In this document: piece after piece, positions 7,118 to 23,493 of the stretch
Position numbering within the stretch: the stretch's first letter is position 1
How the letters are laid out: every line of letters begins with the position of its first letter
DNA from: Demequinaceae bacterium
GTDB lineage: Bacteria; Actinomycetota; Actinomycetes; Actinomycetales; Demequinaceae
DNA: 64,000 nt
Assembly: GCA_016933155.1 (NCBI GenBank)
Contig: JAFGBM010000004.1
Location: 124,001-188,000, forward strand
Direction: 5' to 3'
The notes under the pieces: model-generated
Databases searched by the model: none
Told to the model about the DNA's origin: nothing
The model's input: the letters and a program-made list of their open reading frames with translations, nothing else
Translations under genes and position numbers: made by a program

Positions 7118-7280
7118 CGTCTAGTAATCCAAGGAAACCTAGAATAGCACTCCGGGGTCGCGAACCGACTCGACCTCCCCCGTGCGGCCGGGATCGATGA
7201 CCGAAAAGCCCCCCACCCGATTCCAGGCTTTCACGGGACAATCGGGGTAGTACCCCTCGGTGAAGTGTCAGCTCAAACCC

Positions 7281-7306
7281 AACGGTTCAGCCCGGGGGAT
7301 CGTCAC
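7281..7306 (+). promoter_or_regulatory. ECF-type promoter of sigma-1
   Basis: AACG (7281-7284), 16 bp, CGTCAC (7301-7306), 42 bp before the sigma-1 ATG. It follows the AAC-N16-CGT pattern shared by all five sigma sets in this window. Confidence 0.6.
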
Positions 7307-7347
7307 ACATCCTGAAGGCCAACCAGTGGGACAGATACGGAGAACAG

Positions 7348-7878
7348 ATGGCCGATTGGCGCAACACGATGGAGTGTCTCGTCCGCGACCGCGAGCGGGC
7401 CCTTCTTGGATATGCCTACCTGGTCTGCGGGGATTCGACTGAGGCGCAGGACCTCGTTCAGGACGCCCTCGTGAGGACATTCTCCAGGCCGCGTCCCGGG
7501 CTCACCGTTTTCAAGGCGGAGGCCTACGTGCGCCGCGCCATCACCTCCACCTACATCGACCAGTACCGCCGCCACCAGAGGTGGTCAAGGGTCCAGCACC
7601 TCTTCCGTCCGGGCGACGGGGGGGACGACGCGACGCTGGGTGTCGATATGAGTGCAGACGTGACGCTGGCGATCTCCTCGCTTCCACCGAGGGAGCGGGC
7701 ATGCATCCTGCTCCGCTTCTTCGACGACCTCACGGTGCCGCAGATCGGGCGCCAGTTGGGGATCGCCGAAGGAAGCGTGAAGCGCTACCTCTCCGATGGA
7801 ATCGAACGCCTGGAACGGAGCCTCGGCCCGCTCGAGGACACCGAAATCGAGACGACCCCCGTGGCCGGGTACCGCTAG
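7348..7878 (+). CDS. ECF sigma factor 1 (SigE-family, actinobacterial type)
   Basis: Alternative sigma factor of 176 residues. Region 2 contains GYAYLVCGD, then AQDLVQDALVRTFSR and AYVRRAI. Region 4 contains LPPRERACILLRFFDDLT and the helix-turn-helix IAEGSVKRYLSD. No extra C-terminal domain. ATG 7348 is preceded by GGAGAACAG. It is followed after 29 bp by membrane protein A1, its probable partner. First of five paralogous sets. Confidence 0.93.
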   Translation: MADWRNTMECLVRDRERALLGYAYLVCGDSTEAQDLVQDALVRTFSRPRPGLTVFKAEAYVRRAITSTYIDQYRRHQRWSRVQHLFRPGDGGDDATLGVDMSADVTLAISSLPPRERACILLRFFDDLTVPQIGRQLGIAEGSVKRYLSDGIERLERSLGPLEDTEIETTPVAGYR

Positions 7879-7907
7879 GCCCCGACCCGAATTGAAAGGA
7901 CAATGAC

Positions 7908-9662
7908 ATGACCAGGCTGTCGGATCTCCTCAGAGGTGCGGCCGATCGTGCCCCCATTGGCGAGGCGTCTGTATCGATCCAGACGGCGCACCGCAGGGTG
8001 CGCATCCAGCGCGGCGTCCGTGGTGCGGCCAATGGCCTCGCCGGTGCCGGTGCTGCCGCTCTTGTTTTCGTGGGCATCGTCAATCCCGCCATCACGGCGG
8101 CCACGGGCCAGGACGACGTTGCCCTTGCTCCCGTTCCCGCCGAGGATGACGGAGGCCGGACGCTGGGTGGGCCCGAGACGGATGCCTACTACAACGGCGG
8201 TTGGGGGGTGTGCGGCTCCTATGTCGACACCGCTCCCGTCGACCCCGACCCTTCCCTCTCCCTGACCGTCGATTCCGGCGATCTGGTCGACCTCGAGGGC
8301 GGTACCGTCCTCGACCTCCCGGCCAGACTCACCGCAACGGAGGATCTGACGATCACCTTCAGCCTTGAGGCCGTCATCCTCTATGAGGGAATGGTCGTCG
8401 CCCGGCTCGACGCTGCCGAGGCCGAGCAGATCCTCGCCCTCGCCAGCGGCGATACCGCCGACTCGTCCGTGTCCCTTCCCCTGGTGAACTGCTTCGACGG
8501 GGCTGCCCTGCCTGCGGCGAAGTACGAACTCGTCGTGAGCCAGGCATTCAGTCACACGACCGACGAGCCGGGCCCCGAGCCGACCATGGAGCCGACCCCC
8601 GTGCCCGAGCCGACCATGGAGCCGACCCCCGTGCCCGAGCCGGAGCCGTCTCCCTCCTCCATCGGGACGACGACCGACATGATGGCCCCCGAGCCGATGC
8701 CCGTCGAGCCGGAGATCTGGTGGGAAGCCCGCGCTACCGCCCCCTCCGTGACCCTGTCGATCGCCGGTGATCCCGTCGACGACCCGTTCGGCGACTACAT
8801 CTGGTCCCCGCCGGAGAAGCCGGACGACATCCTCACCCCGGCGAAGGCCCGGGAACTGTACGAGGCGGGACTCGTGTCGGGAACGTGGGACATGGCACCG
8901 GGCACCTCGCGGTGGATCATCCCGAACTACGAAGAGGTCTCGTCCCTTGACTCGATGAGGAAGACCTCCTCCGGCTGGTACGGATGCAGTTGGGACGGGT
9001 CGACCGGGGTCGGCTTCCCGACCGAATCCGCCGTCCTCGACCTCTTGGACGTCTCCATGACCTTCCCCTCCAGGATCAACCTTTCCTACGGATGGGTGGT
9101 CGACGGCAACCCCCAGGTGCACATCACGGTGACCAATACCTCCGAGTACTCGCTCCCCGGTTTCTACGGAGAGCCGAGCCGAACTCTCTACCTGGTCAAA
9201 GACGGGCGGGTGGTGGCCGAGTCGTGGCCGCAGAACATCCGGCCCTACTCCGACGACCTCGTCCGCGAACATATGGCGGCCGACTCCGACGAATACTGGG
9301 GCACCCTGTCCCCGGGGGCTGACATCACCGGCGACTACCTGTGGCGGGACCTCAACGGATGCTGGACGGAGAACGGACCCAGGTCGGTGACGTCCGGCAC
9401 CTACACGCTGGTCACCTCCCAGAGCATCTACATCGACAGCTCCAACGGGGAATACCCGGTCCTGTATGCGGAGGATGACGTGACCGAAGCGGGAGACGGC
9501 CAGTCGGAAGCGCCGGTACCGGCCGTCGATTCCGGGGCGCGGGAGGACACGATCGAGATCGACCCCGTCATTGCGCCCGACATCGAACCGGACTACCTGT
9601 ACGACTGGGTTGAACTTCAGATGTGGACCTCGCTCGGCACTGTGACCATCACCACAAGCTGA
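7908..9662 (+). CDS. Membrane protein A1 with large ectodomain, putative sigma-1 partner/anti-sigma
   Basis: A 584-residue single-pass protein. It has a short cytoplasmic tail rich in Arg (residues 1-38), a membrane segment at about 39-63 and an extracytoplasmic region of about 520 residues. The ectodomain holds two related Cys-bearing beta-rich units: WGVCG...VNCFDG..LPAAKYELVVSQ and WYGCS...LNGCWTEN..SGTYTLVTSQ. A Pro-Glu linker (about 222-250) made by an exact 30-bp tandem repeat separates them. There is no zinc anti-sigma HxxxCxxC motif in the tail. Ribosome site GAAAGGACAATGAC precedes ATG 7908. Position and topology, not homology I recognise, suggest an anti-sigma or sensor role. Confidence 0.8.
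   Translation: MTRLSDLLRGAADRAPIGEASVSIQTAHRRVRIQRGVRGAANGLAGAGAAALVFVGIVNPAITAATGQDDVALAPVPAEDDGGRTLGGPETDAYYNGGWGVCGSYVDTAPVDPDPSLSLTVDSGDLVDLEGGTVLDLPARLTATEDLTITFSLEAVILYEGMVVARLDAAEAEQILALASGDTADSSVSLPLVNCFDGAALPAAKYELVVSQAFSHTTDEPGPEPTMEPTPVPEPTMEPTPVPEPEPSPSSIGTTTDMMAPEPMPVEPEIWWEARATAPSVTLSIAGDPVDDPFGDYIWSPPEKPDDILTPAKARELYEAGLVSGTWDMAPGTSRWIIPNYEEVSSLDSMRKTSSGWYGCSWDGSTGVGFPTESAVLDLLDVSMTFPSRINLSYGWVVDGNPQVHITVTNTSEYSLPGFYGEPSRTLYLVKDGRVVAESWPQNIRPYSDDLVREHMAADSDEYWGTLSPGADITGDYLWRDLNGCWTENGPRSVTSGTYTLVTSQSIYIDSSNGEYPVLYAEDDVTEAGDGQSEAPVPAVDSGAREDTIEIDPVIAPDIEPDYLYDWVELQMWTSLGTVTITTS
8581..8640 (+). repeat. Two perfect 30-bp tandem repeats inside A1
   Basis: Positions 8581-8610 and 8611-8640 are identical. 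They encode two copies of a 10-residue Pro/Glu/Thr/Met unit in the linker between ectodomain halves. Linker length could vary by slippage or recombination. Confidence 0.9.
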
Positions 9663-9675
9663 GGGATTTCGGCTT

Positions 9676-9712
9676 CGGCCCCTTTCCTCCCATACTGGGA
9701 GGCGAGGGGCCG
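9676..9712 (+). terminator. Hairpin after A1, likely terminator
   Basis: Stem CGGCCCC (9676-9682) pairs with GGGGCCG (9706-9712), with an inner CTCCCA/TGGGAG stem. It begins 14 nt after the A1 stop codon. No strong T-run follows, so efficiency is uncertain. Confidence 0.55.
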
Positions 9713-9738
9713 CTGTCGCGGTTTCCCTGGGGCTCACC

Positions 9739-9760
9739 CGATGTGAGATTCCTCACATCG
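9739..9760. promoter_or_regulatory. Perfect 9-bp inverted repeat upstream of sigma-2
   Basis: CGATGTGAG (9739-9747), 4-bp spacer, CTCACATCG (9752-9760). It lies 13 bp upstream of the sigma-2 -35 element, a good place for an activator or repressor. It has no T-run, so it is unlikely to be a terminator. The other four sigma sets lack an obvious equivalent. Confidence 0.5.
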
Positions 9761-9773
9761 ATCGTCCGGCCCC

Positions 9774-9799
9774 AAGGTTTCGGTCGGCCCACTCGTATT
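9774..9799 (+). promoter_or_regulatory. ECF-type promoter of sigma-2
   Basis: AAGG (9774-9777), 16 bp, CGTATT (9794-9799). Compared with the promoter of A2b at 11463-11488, both read CCCCAA, one variable base, GTTT, and then CGTATT at the same distance. This strongly suggests recognition by the same sigma factor. Confidence 0.65.
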
Positions 9800-9849
9800 G
9801 GTCAATAGAAGCGGACGCGAGGGCGTCCTTGTTCTGTCTGGAGGATGTG

Positions 9850-10413
9850 ATGGCCAGTTGGGCCGAAACCCTTGAGGAACTGGTTCGAAAGCGTGGTGGC
9901 GCCCTGACGGCATATGGATACCTCCTCACCGGAAACTCCCGGGATGCGGAGGACCTGTTCCACGACGCCGTCGTGAAGACGTTCTCTCGCGGAAAGTCGG
10001 ATGTGACCATGGGTGAGGCGGAAGCATACGTCCGACGGGCGATGTTCACCTCCCACATGGATGCCGGCCGCAAGGAGCAGTCCTGGCGTCGGGTGTTCCA
10101 CCTCTTCAAGGGGGAGGAGTCCGGGTCCCACGGCGGGGCCGTCGAGTTCCGGACCGATCTTCAGGAGGCCCTGCGTCACCTGACCCCCCGGGAACGGGCT
10201 TGCACCGTTCTCCGCTTCTATGACGACCTCACGGCCGCCGCAATCGGCCAAGAGCTCGGTATTTCCGAAGGCGCCGTCAGACGTTACCTGTCCGACGCAG
10301 CGGTGAAGCTGCGCGGACACCTGGGGGCGCTGGAGGACAACCCCTCGCAGGGTGTCACCTATGGCACCGTGCAAGAAACCGCGACAACACGAGCAAGGAC
10401 ATGGCAACCATGA
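9850..10413 (+). CDS. ECF sigma factor 2 (SigE-family)
   Basis: A 187-residue ECF sigma factor. Region 2: AYGYLLTGNSRDAEDLFHDA and AYVRRAM. Region 4: LTPRERACTVLRFYDDLT with helix-turn-helix ISEGAVRRYLSD. ATG 9850 has GGAGG five bases upstream; a frame opening at 9829 has no ribosome site. The stop overlaps the start of A2 (ATGA), so the two are translationally coupled. It probably drives its own promoter and that of A2b. Confidence 0.92.
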   Translation: MASWAETLEELVRKRGGALTAYGYLLTGNSRDAEDLFHDAVVKTFSRGKSDVTMGEAEAYVRRAMFTSHMDAGRKEQSWRRVFHLFKGEESGSHGGAVEFRTDLQEALRHLTPRERACTVLRFYDDLTAAAIGQELGISEGAVRRYLSDAAVKLRGHLGALEDNPSQGVTYGTVQETATTRARTWQP

Positions 10414-11303
10414 ACATCAACGAGCAGATGAATCAGCTGGGGCAGATCGGGAGTTCCGGGTACGATCCCGCGGATTCCGTGGTCGACCAGCTTGTCGGTC
10501 GCGCCAAGCGTGCCCGGGCGATCCGTCAGGGCGCGGCTGGATTGATCGGATCCGTCGGTGCCATCGGCCTCGGCCTCCTCGGGGCCCAGGTCTTCGTCAA
10601 CCTCACCCAGGACAACGATCCGGCGACCATCGCCGACCGGGGCTTCGACTTCAACAGCATGGAGTGGGGCGACCGCTACGGCGACGACTACACCGGCCTG
10701 GGGAAGACCCAGGACGAACTCGCGCAGGCGTGGGAGGACCTCAAGGCCGCAGCGGCCGTCAAGACCGATGAGCCCGCCCCGGCCCCGGCCAAGACGGAGA
10801 AGCCTGCTGTCACGTGCGAGTACGAGACGAAGACCAAGGACGGCTGGATCTACTACCGGAGCACAGCCACCGGCTGTGAATGGGTGAAGAAGGAGAAGGT
10901 CGAGATCACCGTCCCCGCTGGTTCGATCGAGTTCGGCGGCATCATCGCGCCGTGCAAGAACTACTATGACGCTGCTACGGACTCAACCGTGTGGGCGGCC
11001 TTCATCGACGCCGGCGAGAGCTGGAAGAAGATCGTCAAGTGCGAGGGCGGCCCGACGGACTACTGGTCGGGCAGTTACCGCTACATCTACGGTGGGGGCG
11101 CCGGCGGCGGTTGGCACGCCACCCTCTCGGGCGCGACCTGCACCGGATTCGAGTGGGTCAATGACGGCAAGGTGTATCAGTACATCTGCAACCCGAACTA
11201 CGGCTCCTACGAGTTCCCGTGGAAGTACATCCGGGACGTCACTCCCACCCCGACGCCGACTGAGACTCCGGAGCCGGAGCCGGAGCCGGAGCCGACGATA
11301 TAG
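10410..11303 (+). CDS. Membrane protein A2 (sigma-2 partner, putative anti-sigma)
   Basis: A 297-residue single-pass protein starting at ATG 10410, nine bases after AAGGAC and overlapping the sigma-2 stop. Cytoplasmic tail 1-40 (MNINEQMNQLGQIG, then RAKRARAIRQ), membrane segment about 41-64, then a spacer and a Cys- and Tyr-rich ectodomain (CKNYYDA from residue 182, GATCTGFEW). It ends in a Pro/Thr/Glu tail. The first 125 residues are nearly identical to A2b, about 95% at DNA level by eye, while the ectodomains have diverged though still share Cys spacing. Confidence 0.82.
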   Translation: MNINEQMNQLGQIGSSGYDPADSVVDQLVGRAKRARAIRQGAAGLIGSVGAIGLGLLGAQVFVNLTQDNDPATIADRGFDFNSMEWGDRYGDDYTGLGKTQDELAQAWEDLKAAAAVKTDEPAPAPAKTEKPAVTCEYETKTKDGWIYYRSTATGCEWVKKEKVEITVPAGSIEFGGIIAPCKNYYDAATDSTVWAAFIDAGESWKKIVKCEGGPTDYWSGSYRYIYGGGAGGGWHATLSGATCTGFEWVNDGKVYQYICNPNYGSYEFPWKYIRDVTPTPTPTETPEPEPEPEPTI

Positions 11304-11324
11304 AGATGGATTAACGTAGGACTC

Positions 11325-11365
11325 CTGGGCGTGGCGCGGTTCCCTCAGCCCGTGCCACGCCCGGG
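11325..11365 (+). other. Hairpin downstream of A2 (copy A of a duplicated element)
   Basis: Stem GGGCGTGGC (11327-11335) pairs with GCCACGCCC (11354-11362), with loop CCCTCAGCC. A second copy lies at 12602-12643 after A2b, with compensatory base changes in the stem. It may be a terminator part or a 3' UTR RNA element. Confidence 0.6.
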
Positions 11366-11383
11366 CCCTTCATAGGGGAAGGG

Positions 11384-11422
11384 AACAACAGGCGGGTCAC
11401 CTAAGGTGGCTCGCCTGTTGTT
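11384..11422 (+). terminator. Long stem-loop between A2 and A2b
   Basis: An 18-bp stem (11384-11401 with 11405-11422, two G-T type mismatches) closes a TAA triloop. The right arm ends TTGTT. It is a probable intrinsic terminator separating A2 from the A2b promoter. Confidence 0.65.
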
Positions 11423-11462
11423 CGCCTTGAGGGACGAACCACGGCTCGGGGAATCGCACCCC

Positions 11463-11488
11463 AATGTTTCTCCTGCCCCATCCGTATT
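11463..11488 (+). promoter_or_regulatory. ECF-type promoter of A2b
   Basis: AATG (11463-11466), 16 bp, CGTATT (11483-11488). It shares CCCCAA-n-GTTT and CGTATT with the sigma-2 promoter. It gives A2b its own sigma-2-type control. Confidence 0.65.
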
Positions 11489-11538
11489 AAGTGGTGGGGA
11501 ACGATGCTGAGGCGTCCCGTACGAAAGGACAAAGCACC

Positions 11539-12585
11539 GTGAACATGAATGAGCAGATGAATCAGCTGGGGCAGATAGGAAGCGTCGGCTACACGCCCAA
11601 AGATGCCGTGGTCGACCAACTCGTCGATCGCGCCAAGCGTGCCCGGGCGATCCGTCAGGGCGCGGCCGGATTGATCGGATCCGTCGGCGCCATCGGCCTC
11701 GGCCTCCTCGGGGCCCAGGTCTTCGTCAACCTCACACAGGACAACGATCCCGCGACCATCGCCGACCGGGGCTTCGACTTCAACAGCATGGAGTGGGGCG
11801 ACCGCTACGGCGACGACTACACCGGCCAGGGGTTGACCCAGGAGGAAGCCGCGCAGGCGTGGAAGGACCTCAAGGCCGCTGCGGCCGTCAAGACCGAGGA
11901 ACCCGCCCCCGTCAAGACCGAGGAACCGGCACCGGTCAAGCCGACCAAGCCGGCGTCCGAGATCCCCGATGGCTACTTCCTCTTCGGGAACGGCCAGGTG
12001 TACAAGTGTGAGCAATGGACCGACGCCACCACCGGAACAGTCTTCTGGGGCGCGTACAGCGGAACCGGCGACTGGGCCTACAAGATGATCCAGTGCAACC
12101 CCAACGACAAGTACGAGTACAGCTACAAGTACATGGGTAGTGCCGCGCCGTTCAACACCGCGACCCGCACGTGCACCGGGGCCACCGTCAATTACCTCGG
12201 GGCTCCGCACCGGATCTCCTGCCTGACCAACAGCGTTCTCTGGAACAAGTATCCGGAATGGAACGGGTCCAACGGCGGGAACACCGTATGGTCCCTGAAC
12301 AACGATGAAGGGAAGATCCTGGTCTCCCCCTCGACGTACAAATGGTTCGTGAGCGGGACATGCGCCTCGACCCTCTACTCGAACTCCACTCCGCTGTTCG
12401 GCTTCCCTGCGTGCCACCAGGCCGCATGCGACGGGTGGTACTACACCACGGATCAGCACCCGGAGAGGGATGGAAACCGGTACTCGTGGAGCGGATCGGC
12501 TTGGGTGATCGACAACCCGACCCCGACCCCGACCGAGACGACGCCTCCTCCGGAGCCGGAACCGTCTGTGACGCCTTCGGAGTAG
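11539..12585 (+). CDS. Membrane protein A2b, paralog of A2 with a different ectodomain
   Basis: A 348-residue paralog of A2. The GTG at 11539 lies nine bases after AAAGGAC and gives VNMNEQMNQLGQIG, aligned exactly with the A2 start; an earlier GTG at 11491 has no ribosome site. Tail, membrane segment and spacer are almost the same as in A2. The ectodomain keeps A2-like Cys landmarks (CEQWTDATTG, MIQCNPN, TRTCTG) and then adds a further region with CASTLYS and CHQAACDGWYY. A Pro/Thr/Glu tail ends the protein. No sigma gene of its own precedes it, so sigma-2 probably serves two membrane partners. Confidence 0.8.
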   Translation: MNMNEQMNQLGQIGSVGYTPKDAVVDQLVDRAKRARAIRQGAAGLIGSVGAIGLGLLGAQVFVNLTQDNDPATIADRGFDFNSMEWGDRYGDDYTGQGLTQEEAAQAWKDLKAAAAVKTEEPAPVKTEEPAPVKPTKPASEIPDGYFLFGNGQVYKCEQWTDATTGTVFWGAYSGTGDWAYKMIQCNPNDKYEYSYKYMGSAAPFNTATRTCTGATVNYLGAPHRISCLTNSVLWNKYPEWNGSNGGNTVWSLNNDEGKILVSPSTYKWFVSGTCASTLYSNSTPLFGFPACHQAACDGWYYTTDQHPERDGNRYSWSGSAWVIDNPTPTPTETTPPPEPEPSVTPSE

Positions 12586-12601
12586 TATCGGATTGCAGAC
12601 T

Positions 12602-12643
12602 CCCGGGTGTGGTACGGATCCCTCAGCCTGTGCCACACCCGGG
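12602..12643 (+). other. Hairpin downstream of A2b (copy B of duplicated element)
   Basis: Stem CCCGGGTGTGG (12602-12612) pairs with CCACACCCGGG (12633-12643). Relative to copy A, a C-G pair is replaced by T-A, with both arms changed. The loop again contains CCCTCAGCC. Confidence 0.6.
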
Positions 12644-12656
12644 CCTTCGGGACAAG

Positions 12657-12686
12657 CGGGCCGCCATCGGCGGCCCGTTCTGTTTT
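12657..12686 (+). terminator. Rho-independent terminator after A2b
   Basis: Perfect stem CGGGCCGCC (12657-12665) with GGCGGCCCG (12669-12677), followed by TTCTGTTTT. It separates A2b from the convergent tad operon. Confidence 0.85.
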
Positions 12687-12699
12687 CCGGACAAGGGTC

Positions 12700-13059
12700 T
12701 CAACCTGTCCCCGCACGCGCCGACCTGCTGATCTGGATTCCCGCGGTCCGGGTTTCCACCCTGACCGTTGCGATTCCATCGGCCTCGATCGAGCATTCCG
12801 TGAGGATGCCTCCCCATTCCTCCGCCACGGCCGCCGCTTGGTTGCACGGGTCCTCAGCCATCGGCTGTCCCAACGCGCGAAGGTCCCGCGCCTCCGACGC
12901 GGCGGCCAACGCGCAGGCGTCCGCCGCCCCCTGGGCTCGGGAGCCGGCGACCGCAACAGCCCCCACCGCGCCGAGCGCGACGACCAGGGTCGCAACCACC
13001 GCCACCACCCCCATGAAGACGAGCGAGGTCAAGCCCCGATCCCGCCTAATCCTGGACAC
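12700..13059 (-). CDS. TadE-like secreted/pilus-locus protein (Rv3654c-like)
   Basis: A 119-residue protein with one N-terminal hydrophobic segment (about 11-40) after a basic tip. The Ala-rich region GAADACALAAASEARD is typical of the last gene of actinobacterial tad loci. A GTG at 13059 overlaps the end of the TadE gene by 14 bp. Last gene of the tad operon; probably a pseudopilin-like assembly factor. Confidence 0.75.
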   Translation of the reverse strand: MSRIRRDRGLTSLVFMGVVAVVATLVVALGAVGAVAVAGSRAQGAADACALAAASEARDLRALGQPMAEDPCNQAAAVAEEWGGILTECSIEADGIATVRVETRTAGIQISRSARAGTG

Positions 13060-13369
13060 GCGTCACGGCCGTCGCCCGTGCCTCGAGGCCCCACGGCCCG
13101 CGATCGGCGACGGTCACCCGGATCCACTCCCCATCCCGGAGGATGTCGATCCTGGCGTCGGCGCCGACGATGGCGAGCGCCACGTCGGAAGCGTTCGAAT
13201 CCGTGTCCACGATCGCGATCCTCGCCACCGCGCTTGCGGCTTCCTGGGCCTTCACCATCGCGACACCGTGACACACCGCCGCTCCCAAGAGTCCCAGGAG
13301 CATCGCGACGGCCGGAAGCACCATGGCGAACTCCACCGTCGCCGATCCCCGATCGCTCCCTCGCCGCAC
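13046..13369 (-). CDS. TadE-family pseudopilin
   Basis: A 107-residue protein with the class signature GSATVEFAMVLP: a Glu at +5 after a GS processing site, then a hydrophobic helix. ATG 13369 is one base after the upstream stop, with GGGGCAG as ribosome site. It is probably processed by a prepilin peptidase and forms part of the pilus; no peptidase gene lies in the window. Confidence 0.82.
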   Translation of the reverse strand: MRRGSDRGSATVEFAMVLPAVAMLLGLLGAAVCHGVAMVKAQEAASAVARIAIVDTDSNASDVALAIVGADARIDILRDGEWIRVTVADRGPWGLEARATAVTRVQD

Positions 13370-13370
13370 G

Positions 13371-13538
13371 TTACTGCCCCAGCGCCGACCCGATGAGCCC
13401 CACGAGCCAATCCCTGACCTCGGGGGACTTGAGGATGGCCACCAGCAGCCCGGCGAATCCCGCCGCGGCCAGCGTGACGAGCGCGTACTCCGTCGTCGCC
13501 GATCCGTGATCCTTCCTCAGCCTTCTCACCCGATCCAT
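13371..13538 (-). CDS. Small Flp-like pilin, DUF4244 family
   Basis: A 55-residue peptide: MDRVRRLRKDHGSATTEYAL, then LAAAGFAGLLVAILKSPEVR. The G-SATTEYAL processing site and single hydrophobic helix fit DUF4244/Flp-type pilins, and the position between the T2SSF protein and TadE matches mycobacterial loci. A strong ribosome site (GAGGGGAGG) lies six bases before ATG 13538. Probable major pilus subunit. Confidence 0.85.
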   Translation of the reverse strand: MDRVRRLRKDHGSATTEYALVTLAAAGFAGLLVAILKSPEVRDWLVGLIGSALGQ

Positions 13539-13566
13539 GCAAGCCTCCCCTCGATATCCACGGTCG

Positions 13567-14493: not shown

Positions 14494-15551
14494 GCCGCCC
14501 TCGTGAGTTCAGCCTGAGACTCCCGAGCTTCGTCCCACCCGAGGACCGCCTGGAGTTCGCCCCACGCCGACCCCTGGACGACCTCCCCGCCGGGCCCGGC
14601 CACGAGCGCCGGCTCAACCCGAAGGGCCTCCTCCCTGCGCTGGCCCTCCCGTGCCTGCAGCACCGCCACCTCGGTCACCCGCCTCCCCGCCGCCGTCTTC
14701 TCGAGGTGCACCACCGCATCGAAGGCCGTTGCCGCAAAGAGGTCGGTCGCCCGCCGATCCATGCCGGTGAGAGCCCCGAGTGCGGCGAACCGGGCGGGCA
14801 CATCGGCGGGTGTGTTCGCGTGAAGGATCGCCATTCCCCCCTTGTGCCCGGTGTTAAGGGCGGTGAGCACGTCCCTGACCTCTGAGCCCCGACATTCCCC
14901 CAGAACGATGCGGTCGGGGCGCATCCGAAGAGCCTCCCGGACCAGCCGCGCGAGGGACACCTCCCCCGCCCCGTCGACGTTGACCCGGCGCTCGACCATC
15001 CGAACAACGTGGGGATGATCGGGGTTGACTTCCCCGGCCTCTTCGATGACGATGATGCGTTCCGCAGGGTCGACAAGGGAGAGGAGGGAGGCGAGCAGGG
15101 TGGTTTTCCCGCTGCCCGTCGCCCCCGTGACGAGGATGCTCGCCCGGGCGATCACGAGACCCTCGAGCACGGCCGCGACCCTGGGGGCAAGGGTGCCCCC
15201 GAGGACGAGATCATCGAGAGTGAGGGCCTGGGCCCTGACCGTGCGCAACGAAATGACGGCGCACTCATCGACGACAGGAGGCAAGGCGGCGTGGAGCCTG
15301 GTGCCGTCGGGGAGTCGGGCGTCCACGAGCGGGGACGCGTCGTCGAGCCTCCTGCCCCCCAACGAGGCTAGCCGGACGGCCAATTCCCGGACCTCGCCGG
15401 CGGACGCGAACCGAACCGCTGCCCTCTCCAATCCGGCGCCCCGGTCGATCCAGACGTCGTCCGGCCCATTGACGAGCACGTCCGTCACTCCGGGCACCTC
15501 GATCAACGCCTGGAGACGTCCGGCGTGCCACGGGCGGGGAAGCTGTTTCAT
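14490..15551 (-). CDS. tadA: Tad pilus assembly ATPase TadA/CpaF
   Basis: A 353-residue secretion ATPase that powers Flp pilus assembly. Walker A is GATGSGKTT with Lys149, followed by the acidic Walker B-like IIVIEEAGE and RPDRIVLGECRG. ATG 15551 is chosen because the upstream frame has no family similarity. First gene of the operon tadA, tadB/C, DUF4244, tadE, TadE-like. No CpaE/Ssd gene precedes it, unlike mycobacteria. A palindromic ECF-like promoter lies about 45 nt upstream. Confidence 0.92.
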   Translation of the reverse strand: MKQLPRPWHAGRLQALIEVPGVTDVLVNGPDDVWIDRGAGLERAAVRFASAGEVRELAVRLASLGGRRLDDASPLVDARLPDGTRLHAALPPVVDECAVISLRTVRAQALTLDDLVLGGTLAPRVAAVLEGLVIARASILVTGATGSGKTTLLASLLSLVDPAERIIVIEEAGEVNPDHPHVVRMVERRVNVDGAGEVSLARLVREALRMRPDRIVLGECRGSEVRDVLTALNTGHKGGMAILHANTPADVPARFAALGALTGMDRRATDLFAATAFDAVVHLEKTAAGRRVTEVAVLQAREGQRREEALRVEPALVAGPGGEVVQGSAWGELQAVLGWDEARESQAELTRAA

Positions 15552-15596
15552 GGGGCCAGCCTCACCCCAGAGCGAAGGAACGCCACGAAATCCCCG

Positions 15597-15624
15597 ACAA
15601 CGGTCGAGCCTGCTTGTTCGTTGA
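15597..15624. promoter_or_regulatory. Palindromic, possibly bidirectional ECF-type promoter (tad operon / HAD gene)
   Basis: ACAACG (15597-15602), 16 bp, CGTTGA (15619-15624). Because CAACG-N16-CGTTG is self-complementary, it reads as AACG-N16-CGTTGT toward tadA and as AACG-N16-CGTTGA toward the HAD gene. The spacing equals that of the sigma-array promoters. It could instead be a dyad operator. Confidence 0.5.
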
Positions 15625-15695
15625 GGACCTGGGGACATCGGCCAGGCTGACACCGCCTCCGCCGGTTGTTCGTAGACTTGTCCTAGGGAGGCCCC

Positions 15696-16493
15696 ATGGG
15701 AGATCAGAGCCGCACGGCGGCCTTCTTCGATCTCGACAAGACGATCATCGCGACGTCCTCGGCGATCGCGTTCTCCCACGAGCTCCACGTCGAGGGACTC
15801 CTCACCCGCGTCGACACCCTCCGGACCGCCTACGCCCAGTTCCTGTTCACGATCGGAGGCGCCGACGCCCGGCAGACCGCGCGATTGAGGGACGCCATTG
15901 CGGAGACCATCACGGGCTGGGAGGCGGCCAAGGTCCAGAGGATCGTCGAGGAAACCGTCGACCAGTTGATCGACCCCGTCGTCTACGAGGAGGCTCTCCG
16001 CCTCATCCAACGGCATAAAGCGAACGGCCGGGACGTCATCATCGTGAGTGCCTCCGGGGCGGAGATCGTCCGGCCGATCGCCCGCCTCCTCGGAGCCACC
16101 TCCTTCATCGCCTCCGAGATGGAGGTGGTCGACGGAAAGTACACAGGCCAGATCGGCTTCTACGCCTTTGGACCCCAGAAGGCGAAGGCAATCCGCCGCC
16201 TCGCCGAGGAGAAAGGGTACGACCTGAGGCGCTGCTACGCGTACTCGGACTCCATCACCGACGCCCCCATGCTCAACGCGGTCGGATTCGGCTATGCCGT
16301 CAATCCCGACCGGGCGATGAAGCGGGCGGCGACGGAGAGGGGCTGGGGCATCCTCGAGTTCGAGAAGCCCGTCGTCCTCCGCAAGGCCTCCAACCGCCGC
16401 CTTGCCGTCATCGCCGGGATATCCATCGCCGTCATCGGCCTCGCATGGATCTCGATGTCCCGGCGTCGGTCACGCGGACGATGGGGTGCCTAG
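15696..16493 (+). CDS. HAD-IB phosphatase with C-terminal membrane anchor
   Basis: A 265-residue HAD-superfamily hydrolase of the SerB-like IB group. Motif I is DLDKT (Asp12, Asp14), motif II VSASG, and motif III region YAYSDSITDAPML. A C-terminal hydrophobic helix (about 237-256) is followed by an Arg-rich end. This gene flanks tad loci in mycobacteria (Rv3661-like). AGGGAGG precedes ATG 15696. Substrate unknown. Confidence 0.88.
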   Translation: MGDQSRTAAFFDLDKTIIATSSAIAFSHELHVEGLLTRVDTLRTAYAQFLFTIGGADARQTARLRDAIAETITGWEAAKVQRIVEETVDQLIDPVVYEEALRLIQRHKANGRDVIIVSASGAEIVRPIARLLGATSFIASEMEVVDGKYTGQIGFYAFGPQKAKAIRRLAEEKGYDLRRCYAYSDSITDAPMLNAVGFGYAVNPDRAMKRAATERGWGILEFEKPVVLRKASNRRLAVIAGISIAVIGLAWISMSRRRSRGRWGA

Positions 16494-16520
16494 CTGCCCA
16501 ACGCTTCGAACCAGTCGCGT

Positions 16521-16526
16521 TACCGT
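16521..16526 (+). promoter_or_regulatory. Leaderless-type -10 box
   Basis: TACCGT exactly 6 nt before the ATG of the SGNH hydrolase gene. Confidence 0.5.
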
Positions 16527-16532
16527 AGGTGC

Positions 16533-17402
16533 ATGAGTCGCGCTCCCCTGATCGGCCTCGTCGCACTGGGGATCGCCGTTCTCGTCGGAGCCTCAGCGAC
16601 CCCGGAGCCGTCACCCTCGACCTTCCCGGACGCCGTCCGGGTGATGTTCCTCGGGGACTCCATCACGGGCGGCCCCGGCTGCTGGCGAGCCGAGGTGTGG
16701 CGAAACCTGAGCGACGACGGGTACTCGGTCGACATGGTCGGCCCCTTCACCCGGGACGACTGCGGCGGAGTGGCCGACGCCGAGGGCCGGGTGTGGGACC
16801 CGGACAACGCGGGATACGGCGGCATCACGACGTACGGGGTGACGGCCAAGGTCGCCAACCGGGACCTGCTGACGAACCACCCACCGGACGTCATCGTCAT
16901 GCTGCTCGGCACCAACGACGTCCGGGCGGGGAGCACCACGCAGGAAGTGCTCGACCAGTACACCTTCCTCCTGGGACTCTTCCGCGACTACGTGCCCGAT
17001 GTCACGGTGGTGATCGGGACCCTCCCCCCAATCGGCCCGAGCGACTGCACCGACTGCCAGGCCATCCTCGACGAGCTCAACCCCCTCATCCCCGGGTGGG
17101 CGGAGTCGGCCTCGACACCCGATTCCCCCGTCACCGTGGCCGTCATCCACACCGACCTCGATGTCACGACGGACACGGTCGACGACCTTCACCCGAACGC
17201 GAGCGGAAACGCGAAAATCGCCGCGGCGTTCCTACCCGTCATCGAGGCCGCGCTGGACGATGTGAAGGCCCGACAAGACTCGTCGCCGCTCGTGGAAATG
17301 CTGGCTGGGCTAGGAGCGGTCCTTGTCGTCACCGGGGTGTTCCTCTACTGGCGCTTTCGCCGTGTGAGCACCTCCGGCGCCCAGCCGACCAAGGCTTCCT
17401 GA
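16533..17402 (+). CDS. Exported SGNH/GDSL hydrolase with C-terminal membrane anchor
   Basis: A 289-residue serine esterase-fold protein. The N-terminal hydrophobic segment (4-21) is a signal sequence. Block I GDSIT has Ser43, block III GTND is at 126-129, and block V DDLHP gives Asp218 and His220. A C-terminal membrane helix (about 260-281) ends in RFRR. It probably acts on an ester in the cell envelope; the substrate is not evident. Confidence 0.88.
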   Translation: MSRAPLIGLVALGIAVLVGASATPEPSPSTFPDAVRVMFLGDSITGGPGCWRAEVWRNLSDDGYSVDMVGPFTRDDCGGVADAEGRVWDPDNAGYGGITTYGVTAKVANRDLLTNHPPDVIVMLLGTNDVRAGSTTQEVLDQYTFLLGLFRDYVPDVTVVIGTLPPIGPSDCTDCQAILDELNPLIPGWAESASTPDSPVTVAVIHTDLDVTTDTVDDLHPNASGNAKIAAAFLPVIEAALDDVKARQDSSPLVEMLAGLGAVLVVTGVFLYWRFRRVSTSGAQPTKAS

Positions 17403-17432
17403 CCTCCGCCTCCCACCTCACTGGCCCGCTAC

Positions 17433-17458
17433 AACCCTTGGGACTTGCCGGACGTATA
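17433..17458 (+). promoter_or_regulatory. ECF-type promoter of sigma-3
   Basis: AACC (17433-17436), 16 bp, CGTATA (17453-17458), 33 bp before the sigma-3 start. Confidence 0.6.
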
Positions 17459-17491
17459 GCGGGGTGAAGGCGACACCGGAAGGATGGCGAC

Positions 17492-18049
17492 ATGGGGCGA
17501 TGGAGCGAACACCTCGGACCGCTCATGGAGACGCGCTACCCCGCCCTCCTCGCGTACGCGAACGCCCTGACCGCGGGCGACCGGGCCCAAGCCGAGGACG
17601 TGGTGCAGGACGCCATCGTCCGCTCCTTCTCGCGGGGCCGGGGATTTGAGACCGTCGCCCACTCCGAGGCCTACACCCGGCGTGCGATCCTCTCCGTCTT
17701 CCTCGACAAGACCCGCTCCCGGTCTCGGCTGCTTCGGGCCTTCTCCCGCCTAGCCGAAGCCGACGCCACGCCCTCGCACGACGACACCGTCGACACCTCG
17801 GAATCCGTCCGGACCCTGCTCCGGCACCTCAGCCCCCGCGAGCGCGCCTGCGTCGTCCTTCGGTACTACGACGACCTGACGATCGCCCAGGTGGCCGACG
17901 CCCTGGGACTCGCGTCCGGGACCGTCAAACGGTATCTCTCCAACGCGACCTCCCACCTCGGTGCCCATCTTGGCCTCCCCGACGACCCGGACTCCTCGGA
18001 GTCCGTCGCCGTGTCTTCCCCTCGAGTCCCCTCACGAAAGGAGCGGTGA
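17492..18049 (+). CDS. ECF sigma factor 3 (SigE-family)
   Basis: A 185-residue ECF sigma factor. Region 2: AYANALTAGDRAQAEDVVQDA and AYTRRAI. Region 4: LSPRERACVVLRYYDDLT with helix-turn-helix LASGTVKRYLSN. ATG 17492 is preceded by GGAAGGATGGCGAC. One base separates its TGA stop from the A3 ATG, implying coupled translation. Confidence 0.92.
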   Translation: MGRWSEHLGPLMETRYPALLAYANALTAGDRAQAEDVVQDAIVRSFSRGRGFETVAHSEAYTRRAILSVFLDKTRSRSRLLRAFSRLAEADATPSHDDTVDTSESVRTLLRHLSPRERACVVLRYYDDLTIAQVADALGLASGTVKRYLSNATSHLGAHLGLPDDPDSSESVAVSSPRVPSRKER

Positions 18050-18050
18050 C

Positions 18051-19148
18051 ATGAATCCCATCTCCGACGCCCTCCACGACCTAATGTCCTCCGACGAGGC
18101 CGCCTTCCGGGCCGCCCACAGCGGGCGCGGCCTCGACCTCGAACCCCGAGCCCGTCGGGCCCGTCGCGTCCGCGCGGCCACCCGGGCCGGGCTCGTCGTG
18201 GCCTCCGCCGCCGTCCTCGCCATCTCGGCCTTCTCCGTCTCGGCTGCCCTCCGCGGCGACTCGACCGACACGGACCCCATCGCGCCCCCGGTCCCCGAGG
18301 GCTACGAGCGGGTCGTCATTCCTCTCCCCGACGAAGATGGATGGGTGCAAGGGTTCTCAAAAAGCACAGATCCGGTGTTTGAGGCAGCTGGACTCTACGG
18401 TGCAATCTGCAACGAGCCCCTTCCTGACCTAGCAGACGCCGGACCCTTTCACCTCGAGGTCATCTCCACAAGCCCTGGCTATACAGGACAGAGGCCAGTT
18501 GAAGGCGAGTGGATTCCGACGGACGTCATGGCGGAAGCAACGCTCACCTATAACGGGAGTTCCAGCGGTGTTGTAGCGACCGATCAAAGTGCCTGGATTC
18601 TTTTACGCAGCGACGGGACAATCGCCCAGAGCACAGGGGGTGTCATCTCCAGCGAACCAATGGTGGAGACCAACCACTCACTTCGAGAGGCCTTTTCCAC
18701 CGAAATCGAAGGATGGCTTCCCTTGATCGACTGTGCTGCGCCCCCCCTAAGCGAAGTGTCCCCAGAAGGATACCCACCTGAAGTCCTGCTCGATGCTGGT
18801 TCCTACTCCATAATCAGCATCGCAAAGGTGGAATGGAGCGCTGCGGGCGCGACTGTGCTCGACGCCAACCAGTTGGGGTACGACCCGTCCTGGTTCGGCG
18901 AGGACTGGAGAGACGCGGTCCCCTGCCGCGACGCCGTTGCCGAGGCCAAACTCACCCAGAACGGCAACGCCATCGAATGCTTGCCCCACCTGTACTACCA
19001 GCAGTTCTTCGATTTCCCCTCTGGCAGCCAATACGCCATCGTCGACGTTCCCCTGGGATTCCTCGACGGCCCCAGGAAGACCTGGTACGTCGTCTCCGAC
19101 CCATACCCCTTCGAACTCCCTCTGGAAGGCGAGCCGCCGACAACCTGA
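18051..19148 (+). CDS. Membrane protein A3 (sigma-3 partner, putative anti-sigma)
   Basis: A 365-residue single-pass protein: cytoplasmic tail 1-45 with RARRARRVRAATR, membrane segment about 46-67, ectodomain of about 300 residues. The ectodomain shows the landmarks seen in A1 and A5: a first Cys (YGAICNEP), a second (LIDCAAPP), then LLDAGSYSI. Further Cys occur in VPCRDA and IECLPHL. DNA from about 18350 to 18830 is visibly less GC-rich than both flanks, suggesting that the ectodomain was exchanged. No known domain recognised. Confidence 0.78.
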   Translation: MNPISDALHDLMSSDEAAFRAAHSGRGLDLEPRARRARRVRAATRAGLVVASAAVLAISAFSVSAALRGDSTDTDPIAPPVPEGYERVVIPLPDEDGWVQGFSKSTDPVFEAAGLYGAICNEPLPDLADAGPFHLEVISTSPGYTGQRPVEGEWIPTDVMAEATLTYNGSSSGVVATDQSAWILLRSDGTIAQSTGGVISSEPMVETNHSLREAFSTEIEGWLPLIDCAAPPLSEVSPEGYPPEVLLDAGSYSIISIAKVEWSAAGATVLDANQLGYDPSWFGEDWRDAVPCRDAVAEAKLTQNGNAIECLPHLYYQQFFDFPSGSQYAIVDVPLGFLDGPRKTWYVVSDPYPFELPLEGEPPTT

Positions 19149-19176
19149 CTCCATGCCAGGCCAGAGGTGGGACCCC

Positions 19177-19203
19177 AACCTTTTCCGGGTGTGGTTCCGT
19201 TAT
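19177..19203 (+). promoter_or_regulatory. ECF-type promoter of sigma-4
   Basis: AACC (19177-19180), 17 bp, CGTTAT (19198-19203), preceded by CCC. The spacer is one base longer than in the other sets. Confidence 0.55.
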
Positions 19204-19241
19204 GGGGGCATGATGGTACCGGACTCGGAGGGATCGTGACG

Positions 19242-19778
19242 ATGGTCGAGGATCTCGTGCGAACGCGCTATGGCGCGCTCGTCGGGTTCGCCACGATGCT
19301 GACCGGGAACGCCGTGGAAGCCGAGGACGTGGTGCAGGATGCCCTGGTCGTCGTCTTCGGAAAGCGGGTATCGTTCCCCACCCTGGGACGCGCGGAGTCG
19401 TACGTCCGTCGAACGATCGCCTCCCGCTTCGTCGATGCCCGTCGCGGCCGTCAGCGCCAACGCCAGAGGGAGATCCGAGCGGATCGCGAGGCTTTCTCCT
19501 ATCCGCACACCACCGATGCGCAGGTCGTCAGCCGCCTCGACATCGAGACGGCGCTCGCCGACCTCGCCCCCCGGGTCCGCGCCTGCATCGTGCTCCGCTA
19601 CCTCGCCGATCAATCCATCGCCGATACCGCCCATGCCCTTGGGCTGAGTATGGGTGCGGTCAAGCGCTACGTATCCGACGGGATCGCCGCCCTCAACCTG
19701 GCCCTCGGAACCTTCGAGCCGACCGAGGTCACGGACGGCGAGCGCGCCGAGATCGTCTCCCAGGGAGGTGCTCGATGA
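19242..19778 (+). CDS. ECF sigma factor 4 (SigE-family)
   Basis: A 178-residue ECF sigma factor. Region 2: GFATMLTGNAVEAEDVVQDAL and SYVRRTI. Region 4: LAPRVRACIVLRYLADQS with helix-turn-helix LSMGAVKRYVSD. This departs most from the shared PRERAC and DDLT motifs. ATG 19242 is ten bases after GGAGG; a GTG at 19236 is too close. The end overlaps A4 by ATGA. Confidence 0.9.
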   Translation: MVEDLVRTRYGALVGFATMLTGNAVEAEDVVQDALVVVFGKRVSFPTLGRAESYVRRTIASRFVDARRGRQRQRQREIRADREAFSYPHTTDAQVVSRLDIETALADLAPRVRACIVLRYLADQSIADTAHALGLSMGAVKRYVSDGIAALNLALGTFEPTEVTDGERAEIVSQGGAR

Positions 19779-21322
19779 GCGAGCTCCAGGATCGACTTCG
19801 GGAAGCCGAGGCACGCGCCTCGGCCCACCGTGACTCTGCCACCCTCGAGACCATCGGGGCATCGGTCTCGCGTCGGGCGCGTCGTCGTCGAGTCGTCCGA
19901 AGCGGCGGAACCATCATCGCTGCGGCGGTGGGCATCGGTCTCGTCGGATCGGTGGGCTGGTCGGTCGTCACCCACAATGACCCCATCGCACCAAAGCCGA
20001 GCCCGTCACCCTCCGCGTCGGAGTCGCCCTCGCCGACGCCGGGCCCCGAACCCTCTCCCGTGACCGTCCCCGACGTGCCATACGAGGTCGTCGACGGGGT
20101 GACGGTCTCCCAGTACCTGCCAGAGGCCGAGGCGATCACCCCCGAGGTGTGGGACGAGGCGACCTCCGGTTGGACCCTCGCGGCCTTCGAAGGTGGGCTG
20201 ATGGATCCCTCGCGCCGGCAAAATTGGGGCGGGACCGACATCCTCGGGTACACCTACGGACCCGACATCGCGGTTCCCGGGCCCAGGGTCCTGTACCTCG
20301 TCTCACCTGACGGCCGAACCTACGAAGTGGCCAACCTGACGGATATGGGCGTCGGGGACGTGCTCGCCTGGGATGCCCAGCGCGAGGTCGCCCTCGTGAC
20401 GGATCGATACTCCGGGTACGGCCAAACCTCAAGCCGGATCTTCGCGACCCTCGACCTGAGAAGCGGGGTACTCGGACCATGGTTCGGGGTGGGCGGGGAC
20501 GGGGGCAGCGATTTCGACGTGCGGAGCGATAACGACGGAGTCTGGCCCATCGACGGGGGGTGGGCATTCGTCGGAACGACCTGGGACACCGAGTACAACC
20601 CGACCATCGTCCGGACGATCGTCGACGACTCCGGCCACCCCGTCCCGGGCGCGGCCGTGCTCGATCCGGAGTCGACCTTCACGGCGCTGGTCGGCGAGTA
20701 CCTCGTCGAATACCCGTCGGAATGGCCGCTCCCAGATGCCGCTCCGACCCTGCACGTACGAGACGACTTCGGTCGAGGACCCCTCCTCGAGTACCCCATG
20801 CCGATCGATCCCCACGGTGAGTCATCCAACAACTGCAGGGTCTACCGACTCGCTGCGCCGGAAGCGGTCGTCGTGGAGTGCGGGGCGTCCGAAGGGGAGG
20901 ACGGGCAGGGAACGATGCGGTCCACCGTCGCCGTGTTCGACCCCGAGCAGGGCTCGTTCGAGACGATCGTCGATTGGGACGGGAACACCCTCCTGGGGTA
21001 CGACTCCCAGGACATCCTCCGATGCGTCCGAGGCGACACCGTCTACGGTTTGTATCAACCCGGTCAGACCGATTGGGTGATGGGAGGACTGCGCGTTCGG
21101 AGCGCCGATCGCTACGAGGTCCTCTCCCCGCCGCCGGGGGTGTACATGGCGATCCAGTGCGAGGGTGCCGCCGGGGACGATTTCGTGGTCCGAGGCTCGG
21201 GGCCACTCCTCGCCCTCGACCCCGTGAACGAGACCTGGGGGACGCTCCTTCCCGCCAATGGCGGGACGTCTGATCGGCTCGTTGCCGGAGTCACCGACCT
21301 AGGGATGTTCGTCGCGCCGTAG
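19775..21322 (+). CDS. Membrane protein A4 (sigma-4 partner) with propeller-like ectodomain
   Basis: A 515-residue single-pass protein: cytoplasmic tail 1-43 (VSRRARRRRVVR), membrane segment about 44-65, a Pro/Ser-rich stalk (about 70-95) and a large ectodomain. Repeated beta-strand stretches (RVLYLVSPDGRTYEV, EVALVTDRYSG, RIFATLDLRSGVLG) resemble a beta-propeller or quinoprotein-like fold, unlike the Cys units of A1, A3 and A5. The start overlaps the sigma-4 stop. Anti-sigma or sensor function is inferred from position and topology. Confidence 0.78.
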   Translation: MSELQDRLREAEARASAHRDSATLETIGASVSRRARRRRVVRSGGTIIAAAVGIGLVGSVGWSVVTHNDPIAPKPSPSPSASESPSPTPGPEPSPVTVPDVPYEVVDGVTVSQYLPEAEAITPEVWDEATSGWTLAAFEGGLMDPSRRQNWGGTDILGYTYGPDIAVPGPRVLYLVSPDGRTYEVANLTDMGVGDVLAWDAQREVALVTDRYSGYGQTSSRIFATLDLRSGVLGPWFGVGGDGGSDFDVRSDNDGVWPIDGGWAFVGTTWDTEYNPTIVRTIVDDSGHPVPGAAVLDPESTFTALVGEYLVEYPSEWPLPDAAPTLHVRDDFGRGPLLEYPMPIDPHGESSNNCRVYRLAAPEAVVVECGASEGEDGQGTMRSTVAVFDPEQGSFETIVDWDGNTLLGYDSQDILRCVRGDTVYGLYQPGQTDWVMGGLRVRSADRYEVLSPPPGVYMAIQCEGAAGDDFVVRGSGPLLALDPVNETWGTLLPANGGTSDRLVAGVTDLGMFVAP

Positions 21323-21339
21323 CATCACCACCCACCCCC

Positions 21340-21365
21340 AACGTTCGCCCCCACCCACCCGTTCA
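21340..21365 (+). promoter_or_regulatory. ECF-type promoter of sigma-5
   Basis: AACG (21340-21343), 16 bp, CGTTCA (21360-21365), preceded by CCCCC. It lies only 17 bp after the A4 stop. Confidence 0.6.
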
Positions 21366-21400
21366 AGCCGGTGACAGGGCACACTGGACCCGGAGGCGAC

Positions 21401-21934
21401 ATGGGTGCGTGGAGGGGCTTGCTGGCGGAGGTCGTCAGGACCCGCCACGCCTCCCTCCTCGCGTACGGGTACCTCTTGACCTCGAGCCGAGCGGACGCCG
21501 AGGACCTCGTCCAAGATGCGCTCGTCAAGGTCTTCTCCCGCGTCCGCACCCTGCCAAACGCCGCCGCCGCCGATCAATACGTCCGGAGGGCCATGCTCAC
21601 CCTCTACCTCGACCGTCGGCGCCGCGACCATGCGTGGAACCTGGTGAAGCGAATCGTCACAACGGACGACGGCGTGGCTGGGCCGGAGGACTCCGTCACG
21701 GCGTCCACGGACGTCCGGGCCTCCCTGGCCGCCCTCAGCCCCAGGGAGCGGGCCTGCGTCGTCCTCCGCCACTTCGACGACCTCTCGGTGCGGGAGATCG
21801 CCGGGCGGCTAGGGCTCGCCGAGGGAAGCGTCAAGCGGTACCTCAGCGACGGGCTGAAGCGCCTCGGCGTCGAGATGACCGATGACGGGGCCACGGTTAC
21901 CGTGGTCGCCCACGGCCGCGAAGGGAGGAACTGA
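21401..21934 (+). CDS. ECF sigma factor 5 (SigE-family)
   Basis: A 177-residue ECF sigma factor. Region 2: LAYGYLLTSSRADAEDLVQDAL and YVRRAM. Region 4: LSPRERACVVLRHFDDLS with helix-turn-helix LAEGSVKRYLSD. ATG 21401 follows CGGAGGCGAC. One base separates it from A5. Confidence 0.92.
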   Translation: MGAWRGLLAEVVRTRHASLLAYGYLLTSSRADAEDLVQDALVKVFSRVRTLPNAAAADQYVRRAMLTLYLDRRRRDHAWNLVKRIVTTDDGVAGPEDSVTASTDVRASLAALSPRERACVVLRHFDDLSVREIAGRLGLAEGSVKRYLSDGLKRLGVEMTDDGATVTVVAHGREGRN

Positions 21935-21935
21935 C

Positions 21936-23489: not shown

Positions 23490-23493
23490 ATCC

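Follow-up and report, generated by a model that had tools for sequence, protein, structure and literature searches.

Predicted self-activating modules of ECF sigma factors and membrane partners, with lineage-specific promoter variants, in a Demequinaceae genome

Organization of the sigma factor array

The window, that is, the whole stretch of DNA that was analysed, comprises 64,000 nt of a 1.885-Mb, 15-contig genome from the Demequinaceae (G000; labels such as G001 denote other genomes of the family, and L followed by a number denotes a sigma factor locus). Between positions 7348 and 21934 it contains five ECF sigma factor genes, each followed by a gene for a predicted single-pass membrane protein, and all genes and promoter sites described for this array lie on the forward strand. 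The first pair consists of sigma-1 (7348-7878), in which Pfam regions 2 and 4 are both recognized, and partner 1 (7908-9662), a putative anti-sigma factor or sensor whose hydrophobic stretch begins at about residue 44. The end of the sigma-2 gene (9850-10413), whose product has a recognition helix with VRRY instead of VKRY, overlaps by 13 nt with the gene for partner 2 (10401-11303), a membrane protein as judged by hydropathy. It is followed by a paralogue of partner 2 that has no sigma factor gene (11545-12585), with a near-identical N-terminal part and a diverged ectodomain. The remaining pairs are sigma-3 (17492-18049) with partner 3 (18051-19148), sigma-4 (19236-19778, with a GTG start) with partner 4 (19775-21322), and sigma-5 (21401-21934) with partner 5 (21936-23489).

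With regions 2 and 4 only and a length of about 180 aa, the five proteins have the layout of ECF (group IV) sigma factors. Region 4 passed the Pfam cut-off in all five and region 2 in four; sigma-2 gave no Pfam region-2 match at E 0.001, and its region 2 was seen only through full-length ECF models. All five exceeded the cut-off of the sigma70-ECF model TIGR02937. The best NCBIfam match for each was SigE-fam_strep (TIGR02983), yet at 102-122 bits these matches stay under the curated cut-off of 141.55. The nearest named loci belong to Demequina species, and the best match with a solved structure is SigL of Mycobacterium tuberculosis (6dv9, E 8e-17). At E 0.001, neither the five partners nor the sigma-less copy matched any Pfam family, and hence no known anti-sigma domain was recognized in them. 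Structure comparison with a model of partner 1 predicted by AlphaFold (mean pLDDT 62.9) found nothing above a query TM-score of 0.17, and no fold is claimed.

Promoter sites upstream of the sigma factor genes

An earlier sequence-only reading had placed a common ECF-type promoter before every sigma factor gene of the array, and all five motifs were found exactly where it had put them. The site of sigma-1 (7281-7303) has the -35 sequence AACG at 7281-7284, a spacer of 16 bp and CGT at 7301-7303, and that of sigma-2 (9774-9796) has AAGG at 9774-9777, 16 bp and CGT at 9794-9796 within CGTATT. Upstream of sigma-3 (17433-17455), the site with the weakest support of the five, AACC at 17433-17436 is followed after 16 bp by CGT at 17453-17455; sigma-4 (19177-19200) has AACC at 19177-19180, 17 bp and CGT at 19198-19200; and sigma-5 (21340-21362) has AACG at 21340-21343, 16 bp and CGT at 21360-21362. 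The AAC is therefore exact in four of the five and is AAG in sigma-2. The C-runs said to precede most of these sequences are present in four sites, with CTACAACC instead at sigma-3.

The distances from site to sigma factor start are 67, 76, 59, 59 and 61 nt for sigma-1 to sigma-5. In the window outside 7200-23500, on both strands, the chance of an AACS/AAGG-16/17-CGT site lying 46-80 nt before a random point is 0.0196, which gives a probability of 2.9e-9 for all five, a somewhat flattering value because the range of 46-80 nt was picked after the sites had been seen. With a matrix built from relatives only (100 sites), the five sites took ranks 1, 2, 7, 8 and 21 when both strands of the window were scanned, sigma-5 having the top site; on these ranks and the above probability, a chance origin of the five sites was rejected. 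A palindromic site at 15599, which lies between a tadA-like gene and a HAD gene, is also top-scoring in the window but is not put forward as a target.

Five further relatives of the array sigma factors, encoded elsewhere in the genome, also carry the site, which brings the count to ten out of ten. These ten score 11.2-18.0 versus at most 8.4 for the eight other sigma factor genes of the genome, which served as a negative control and of which two, at 7.3 and 8.4, were slightly above the 95% null of 7.2. The bare motif is far less specific. CCAACSN16CGT occurs at 77 places in the genome versus 18 for a reversed-pattern control, and its 17-bp form at 35 versus 26. The sequence-only reading had named equally frequent occurrence of the motif inside genes as one observation that would speak against it, and for the bare motif this is partly the case, since 19 of the 30 places examined out of the 77 fall within called ORFs. 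The proof is carried by position and conservation, and a genome-wide regulon based on the bare motif was abandoned because the motif is too common.

Conservation of promoters and membrane partners

For the comparison across the family, 115 sigma factor upstream regions were assembled, namely the ten of this genome and 105 from 18 further Demequinaceae genomes, restricted to family matches with E < 1e-35 among the matches listed. A de novo two-block search, which started from random sites, allowed a wide range of gaps and was not seeded with the previously noted motif, recovered [A/C]CCC-AAC-S, 16 or 17 bp and CGT in 111 of the 115 regions, with an objective of 977 versus 54-65 in three shuffled sets. 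Among the 110 sites scoring above 5, the spacing was 16 in 95 and 17 in 15; the other five loci (L129, L121, L068, L097 and L098) had no site above this score. By sequence and spacing, the promoter sites of the array belong to this AAC-16/17-CGT type. A further scan took in 52 of 80 named loci (L141-L192, the more distant L193-L220 being set aside and one locus being too short). Since the Demequina loci probably overlap the training genomes, only the 33 non-Demequina loci, from Cellulomonas, Oerskovia, Actinotalea, Micromonospora and others, count as independent, and 28 of these 33 named loci scored above the 95% null.

The skeleton is common to all five promoters, as had been proposed, but the -35 letters, the spacer length and the bases around CGT are specific to the lineage. 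In the sigma-1 group, AACG and CGTC are each present in 18 of 19 members, our own included, with L042 the exception both times. Both sigma-2 orthologues that were found, L057 and L058, retain the AAGG. The 17-bp spacer of sigma-4, which had been noted as a deviation within the array, is explained by the fact that spacer length follows the sigma factor tree, as the tree neighbours of sigma-4 (L025, L105, L084 and L104) likewise score best with 17 bp.

The membrane partner is conserved along with the promoter. According to a hydropathy rule, a membrane protein gene follows the sigma factor gene at 108 of the 115 loci, and the hydrophobic stretch starts at a median of residue 44; of the seven misses, six have a weaker stretch (1.35-1.50), and at L089, which is close to the end of a contig, no frame was obtained. 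This gene order, with a predicted single pass and a short N-terminal part before it, is the arrangement expected of a membrane-bound anti-sigma factor.

A sixth promoter and a second surface protein

The sigma-less paralogue of partner 2 is preceded by a sixth promoter site of the sigma-2 type, which the sequence-only reading had missed. This site (11463-11485) reads CCCCAATG-16-CGTATT, with AATG at 11463-11466 and CGT at 11483-11485 after a spacer of 16 bp, and it ranked 12th in the window scan. Partner 2 and the sigma-less copy share 90.7% of their DNA sequence over 386 bp covering the inner domain, the membrane stretch and the stalk, and their outer parts have diverged. The pattern CCAAKGTTTN13CGTA has five matches in G000, G001 and G002 together, and its reversed control has none. 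Three of the five are sigma-2 promoters, one is the site at 11463, and the last precedes a sigma-less gene next to sigma-2 in G002. The product of this comparable G002 gene matches the sigma-less protein of the window in the ectodomain only, the outer parts being related with 29% identity over 185 aa. Taken together, the pattern matches and the related outer parts make it most likely, as far as sequence comparison goes, that sigma-2 also directs the synthesis of a second surface protein through the promoter at 11463, which may serve either as another anti-sigma factor or as an effector.

Co-divergence of promoters and sigma factors

The relation between promoter variants and sigma factors was analyzed on a tree of the 115 sigma factors with the 110 sites scoring above 5 and with 300 within-genome shuffles for each measure; the five sites scoring 5 or less were left out here and in the promoter-picking described below, and one of them, L121, was restored for the analysis of helix residues. 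The three-letter -35 core requires 5 changes on the sigma factor tree versus a shuffle mean of 17.3 (minimum 14), and the spacer length likewise requires 5 versus a mean of 14.1 (minimum 12). By column, the ratio of observed to null changes is 0.21-0.39 at the four AACS positions versus 0.75-0.89 at spacer positions +7 to +13, and 0.44-0.81 downstream of CGT, mostly under the spacer ratios. When the promoter of each sigma factor was to be picked from the set of its own genome, guided by the promoters of the three closest relatives that came from other genomes and were separated from it by 0.5 changes or more, the correct one was chosen in 58 of 102 cases (chance 15, spacer-base control 28, upstream-base control 18). 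Of the ten sigma factors of the genome studied here, four (sigma-1, sigma-2, sigma-5 and L027) had their own promoter in first place, by a small margin for sigma-1 and sigma-5, and the promoter of sigma-3, which is without a near relative, came last of ten.

The variants of the -35 core also pair with residues of the recognition helix. With numbering as in sigma-1, residues 145-146 are KR in 84 of the 92 sigma factors with an AAC core, the others having KK (2), KS (2) or RR (4). They are RR or HR in the AAG sigma factors (3 of 3), KK in the ACC sigma factors (7 of 7), RK in the CGC sigma factors (5 of 5, L121 included) and RG in the TGC sigma factors (4 of 4). When the sequences were grouped into 49 clusters, R146 was kept in 38 of 41 clusters with AA versus none of 8 others (P 3.7e-7), and it is also changed in four AAC sigma factors, the two with KK and the two with KS. 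Ranked by mutual information over entropy, R146 came first at each of the three clustering cuts, and ranked by plain mutual information it came first at two; at the coarser cuts just 3 and 2 non-AA clusters are left, and at the coarsest (25 clusters) the link is weak (P 0.01). For the C or G that follows AAC, P131 and other residues ranked highest, but independent pairs (5 to 0, median p 0.06) gave too little support for any claim.

Covariation is in itself no new observation, for Todor et al. reportedly used it in 2020 to rewire ECF specificity. In a gap-free alignment to M. tuberculosis SigL, K145-R146 stand opposite the K-S of its VKSR, and from the common VxSR pattern we take these residues to be equivalent to M170-S171 of sigma-H of Corynebacterium glutamicum. 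According to excerpts of a simulation study of C. glutamicum sigma-D and sigma-H (PMC11588781), bases -33 and -32 are placed against the part of the helix from 170 to 171, and base -31 against position 170. Excerpts of a structural report on M. tuberculosis sigma-H describe contacts of S182 and R186 with the -35 element and an effect of M181 on -31/-30 (PMC6411747). As in the C. glutamicum sigma factors, where positions 170 and 171 help to set -35 specificity (PMC11588781, in the excerpted part), the -35 variant read by each lineage is probably set partly by residues 145-146; unlike the changes engineered there, those described here are natural and include loss of the AA step in the ACC, CGC and TGC cores.

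Autoregulation and insulation

The autoregulation that had been proposed for the array is, on comparative evidence, well supported by the family-wide conservation of the sites and by the co-divergence of promoters with sigma factors. We consider it highly probable that the best explanation for the array is a set of self-activating modules, each formed by a sigma factor gene and its membrane partner, which are partly insulated from each other by lineage-specific promoter variants. The partner, with about 40 residues inside the cell and a large, variable part outside, would most likely hold the sigma factor until an outside signal frees it. The freed sigma factor would then read AAC-16/17-CGT before its own gene, so that sigma factor and partner would be raised together, and it would also transcribe a few other genes. 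Each sigma lineage would read its own variant of the shared skeleton, which would leave the modules at least partly insulated.

The most serious alternative is that the promoters are read interchangeably, such that any active sigma factor of the array, or one master sigma factor, switches on all of them in a cross-wired network. The shared CCAAC[CG]-16/17-CGT skeleton is consistent with such a network, as is the fact that only four of ten sigma factors of this genome rank their own promoter first, and all ECF sigma factors of Bacillus subtilis are described as cross-talking in the excerpted part of the study of Rhodius et al. (PMC3817407). However, the letters of the core and the length of the spacer follow the sigma factor tree, the AAGG/AATG...CGTA form is confined to sigma-2 loci in three genomes, and a promoter can be assigned to its sigma factor from relatives far above chance and above the spacer controls, so that interchangeable reading appears unlikely. 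The earlier suggestion of cross-talk between the five regulators is thereby weakened, since the lineages keep their own -35 letters, spacer and CGT-flanking bases, and free cross-talk is the less favoured reading; cross-talk may still take place between sigma-4, sigma-5 and a number of the dispersed sigma factors.

It is less probable still, and in our judgement quite improbable, that promoters and sigma factors match merely through joint inheritance of neighbouring sequence, without the sigma factor reading its own promoter. Related genomes do share sequence by descent, and part of this is seen in the controls, in which spacer and upstream bases also picked the right promoter more often than chance and the columns downstream of CGT gave ratios mostly below those of the spacer. 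In contrast, the columns of the -35 core follow the clades far more closely than those of the nearby spacer, the AA step and R146 change together, and the sigma-2 form also precedes sigma-less genes in two genera. Finally, that the motif arises by chance in a genome rich in G+C, as its many bare occurrences, often inside ORFs, might suggest, or is a conserved element with another role such as an operator or RNA leader, is very improbable in view of its position at the sigma factor starts (P about 3e-9), its two blocks at a strict 16/17-bp spacing around a free spacer, its link to the recognition helix and the low scores before the eight other sigma factor genes.

Relation to known systems

Autoregulation of ECF sigma factors is textbook knowledge, and in this respect the array is of an ordinary kind. 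SigL holoenzyme transcribes its own promoter, P-sigL, and prefers C-G just upstream of a -10 element that begins with T, which together make CGT, according to excerpts of a structural study (PMC6372665). The array sigma factors resemble SigL in both respects, the predicted use of their own promoter and the C-G-T at the -10 end; unlike the single SigL, ten related sigma factors are encoded in one 1.9-Mb genome here, five of them in an array. In the sigma factor network of M. tuberculosis, as excerpted from PMC4821874, autoregulation is enriched and sigma factors also regulate each other. According to the excerpted text of Rhodius et al. 2013 (PMC3817407), most ECF sigma factors control their own synthesis through a promoter upstream of their gene, and insulation prevails between promoter groups and holds for many pairs. 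The group-specific two-block motifs of that study were mined in the same way as ours, but the ECF groups concerned diverge across bacteria, whereas the divergence described here took place within the radiation of one family and often between paralogues of one genome. A literature search found no paper on Demequina together with ECF sigma factors. The useful part of the present data is a natural series of 115 related sigma factors and their promoters, with cores AAC, AAG, ACC, CGC and TGC that pair with different recognition-helix dipeptides, through which the divergence of ECF specificity after duplication can be approached pair by pair.

Serpin lipoprotein and other dispersed sites

One site of this type, AACGATTC-16-CGTT, lies 62 nt before a serpin-family lipoprotein gene (G000:C3:205197), 17 kb beyond the window. 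Eight of the 19 family genomes encode serpins, five in a set of 13 and three in a set of six, and six of these eight have the site before the gene: AACG-16-CGT is located 32-62 nt before the serpin start in G000, G001, G002, G004, G013 and G016, G016 being included on the condition that translation begins at the second ATG. In G012, a weak site (10.3) overlaps the likely start of a gene at the edge of a contig that is split over two frames, and the serpin gene of G017 has no such site upstream. No group of the sigma factor tree other than sigma-1 was seen in all these genomes, and sigma-1 is the likeliest reader of the serpin site; we infer this rather than observe it, because the sigma-1 letters AACG...CGTC fit best in G004, G013 and G016, whereas G000, G001 and G002 have CGTT. 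The site is a plausible output for modules of otherwise obscure purpose, and a search of the literature, judged by title, found no paper linking serpins to ECF sigma factors. A broader picture, which we put forward tentatively and regard as rather doubtful in its entirety, is that the family radiated partly insulated pairs whose -35 code switched repeatedly through residues 145-146, including loss of the AA step, and that sigma-1, the most conserved of them, drives surface lipoproteins including the serpin, so that the module may detect foreign proteases attacking its large ectodomain and respond by producing a protease inhibitor.

Sites of this type also precede the gene for another lipoprotein, characterized by a YYPAC motif, in G003, G005 and G008. 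A stricter sigma-1-type pattern gave 23 matches in 13 family genomes, ten before sigma-1 genes and 13 elsewhere, and the latter comprise two between genes and 11 inside called ORFs, one of which, L264, also precedes the YYPAC gene.

Sigma-type sites away from the sigma genes

A putative ECF promoter, with an AAC-type -35 element and CGT separated by 16 bp, was found in the source genome 17 kb to the right of the window (L304, G000:C3:205197-205222), 62 nt upstream of a serpin lipoprotein gene. Of the eight genomes of the family with a serpin gene, six have a site of this type in front of it. Within the window, a self-complementary site, CAACG-16-CGTTG, is present on both strands at 15599-15622, in an intergenic stretch flanked by a HAD gene and a tadA-like T2SSE gene, and its two orientations took ranks 3 and 4 when the window was scanned with the matrix trained only on relatives. 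AACG-16-CGT was also observed upstream of lipoprotein genes in three related genomes of the same bacterial family, G003, G005 and G008 (loci L260, L264 and L302); the encoded lipoproteins form one family, characterised by a YYPAC motif.

Three sigmas forming one clade (L068, L097 and L098) were without any AAC/CGT site in the upstream regions scanned, and the -10 parts are poor for their neighbours in the sigma tree, L072 and L074. This clade perhaps uses a different promoter form.

Genes adjoining the sigma sets

Partner 2, a predicted single-pass membrane protein (10401-11303), and the adjacent sigma-less paralogue (11545-12585) are almost identical in the inner and membrane part, whereas the outer part has diverged, a pattern such as duplication with local conversion would leave. 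Pilus-type genes with T2SSE and T2SSF matches lie on the minus strand at 13567-15551, between sigma sets 2 and 3, and a gene fusing an ArsR-type HTH to a rhodanese domain (6443-7117) is divergent from sigma-1.
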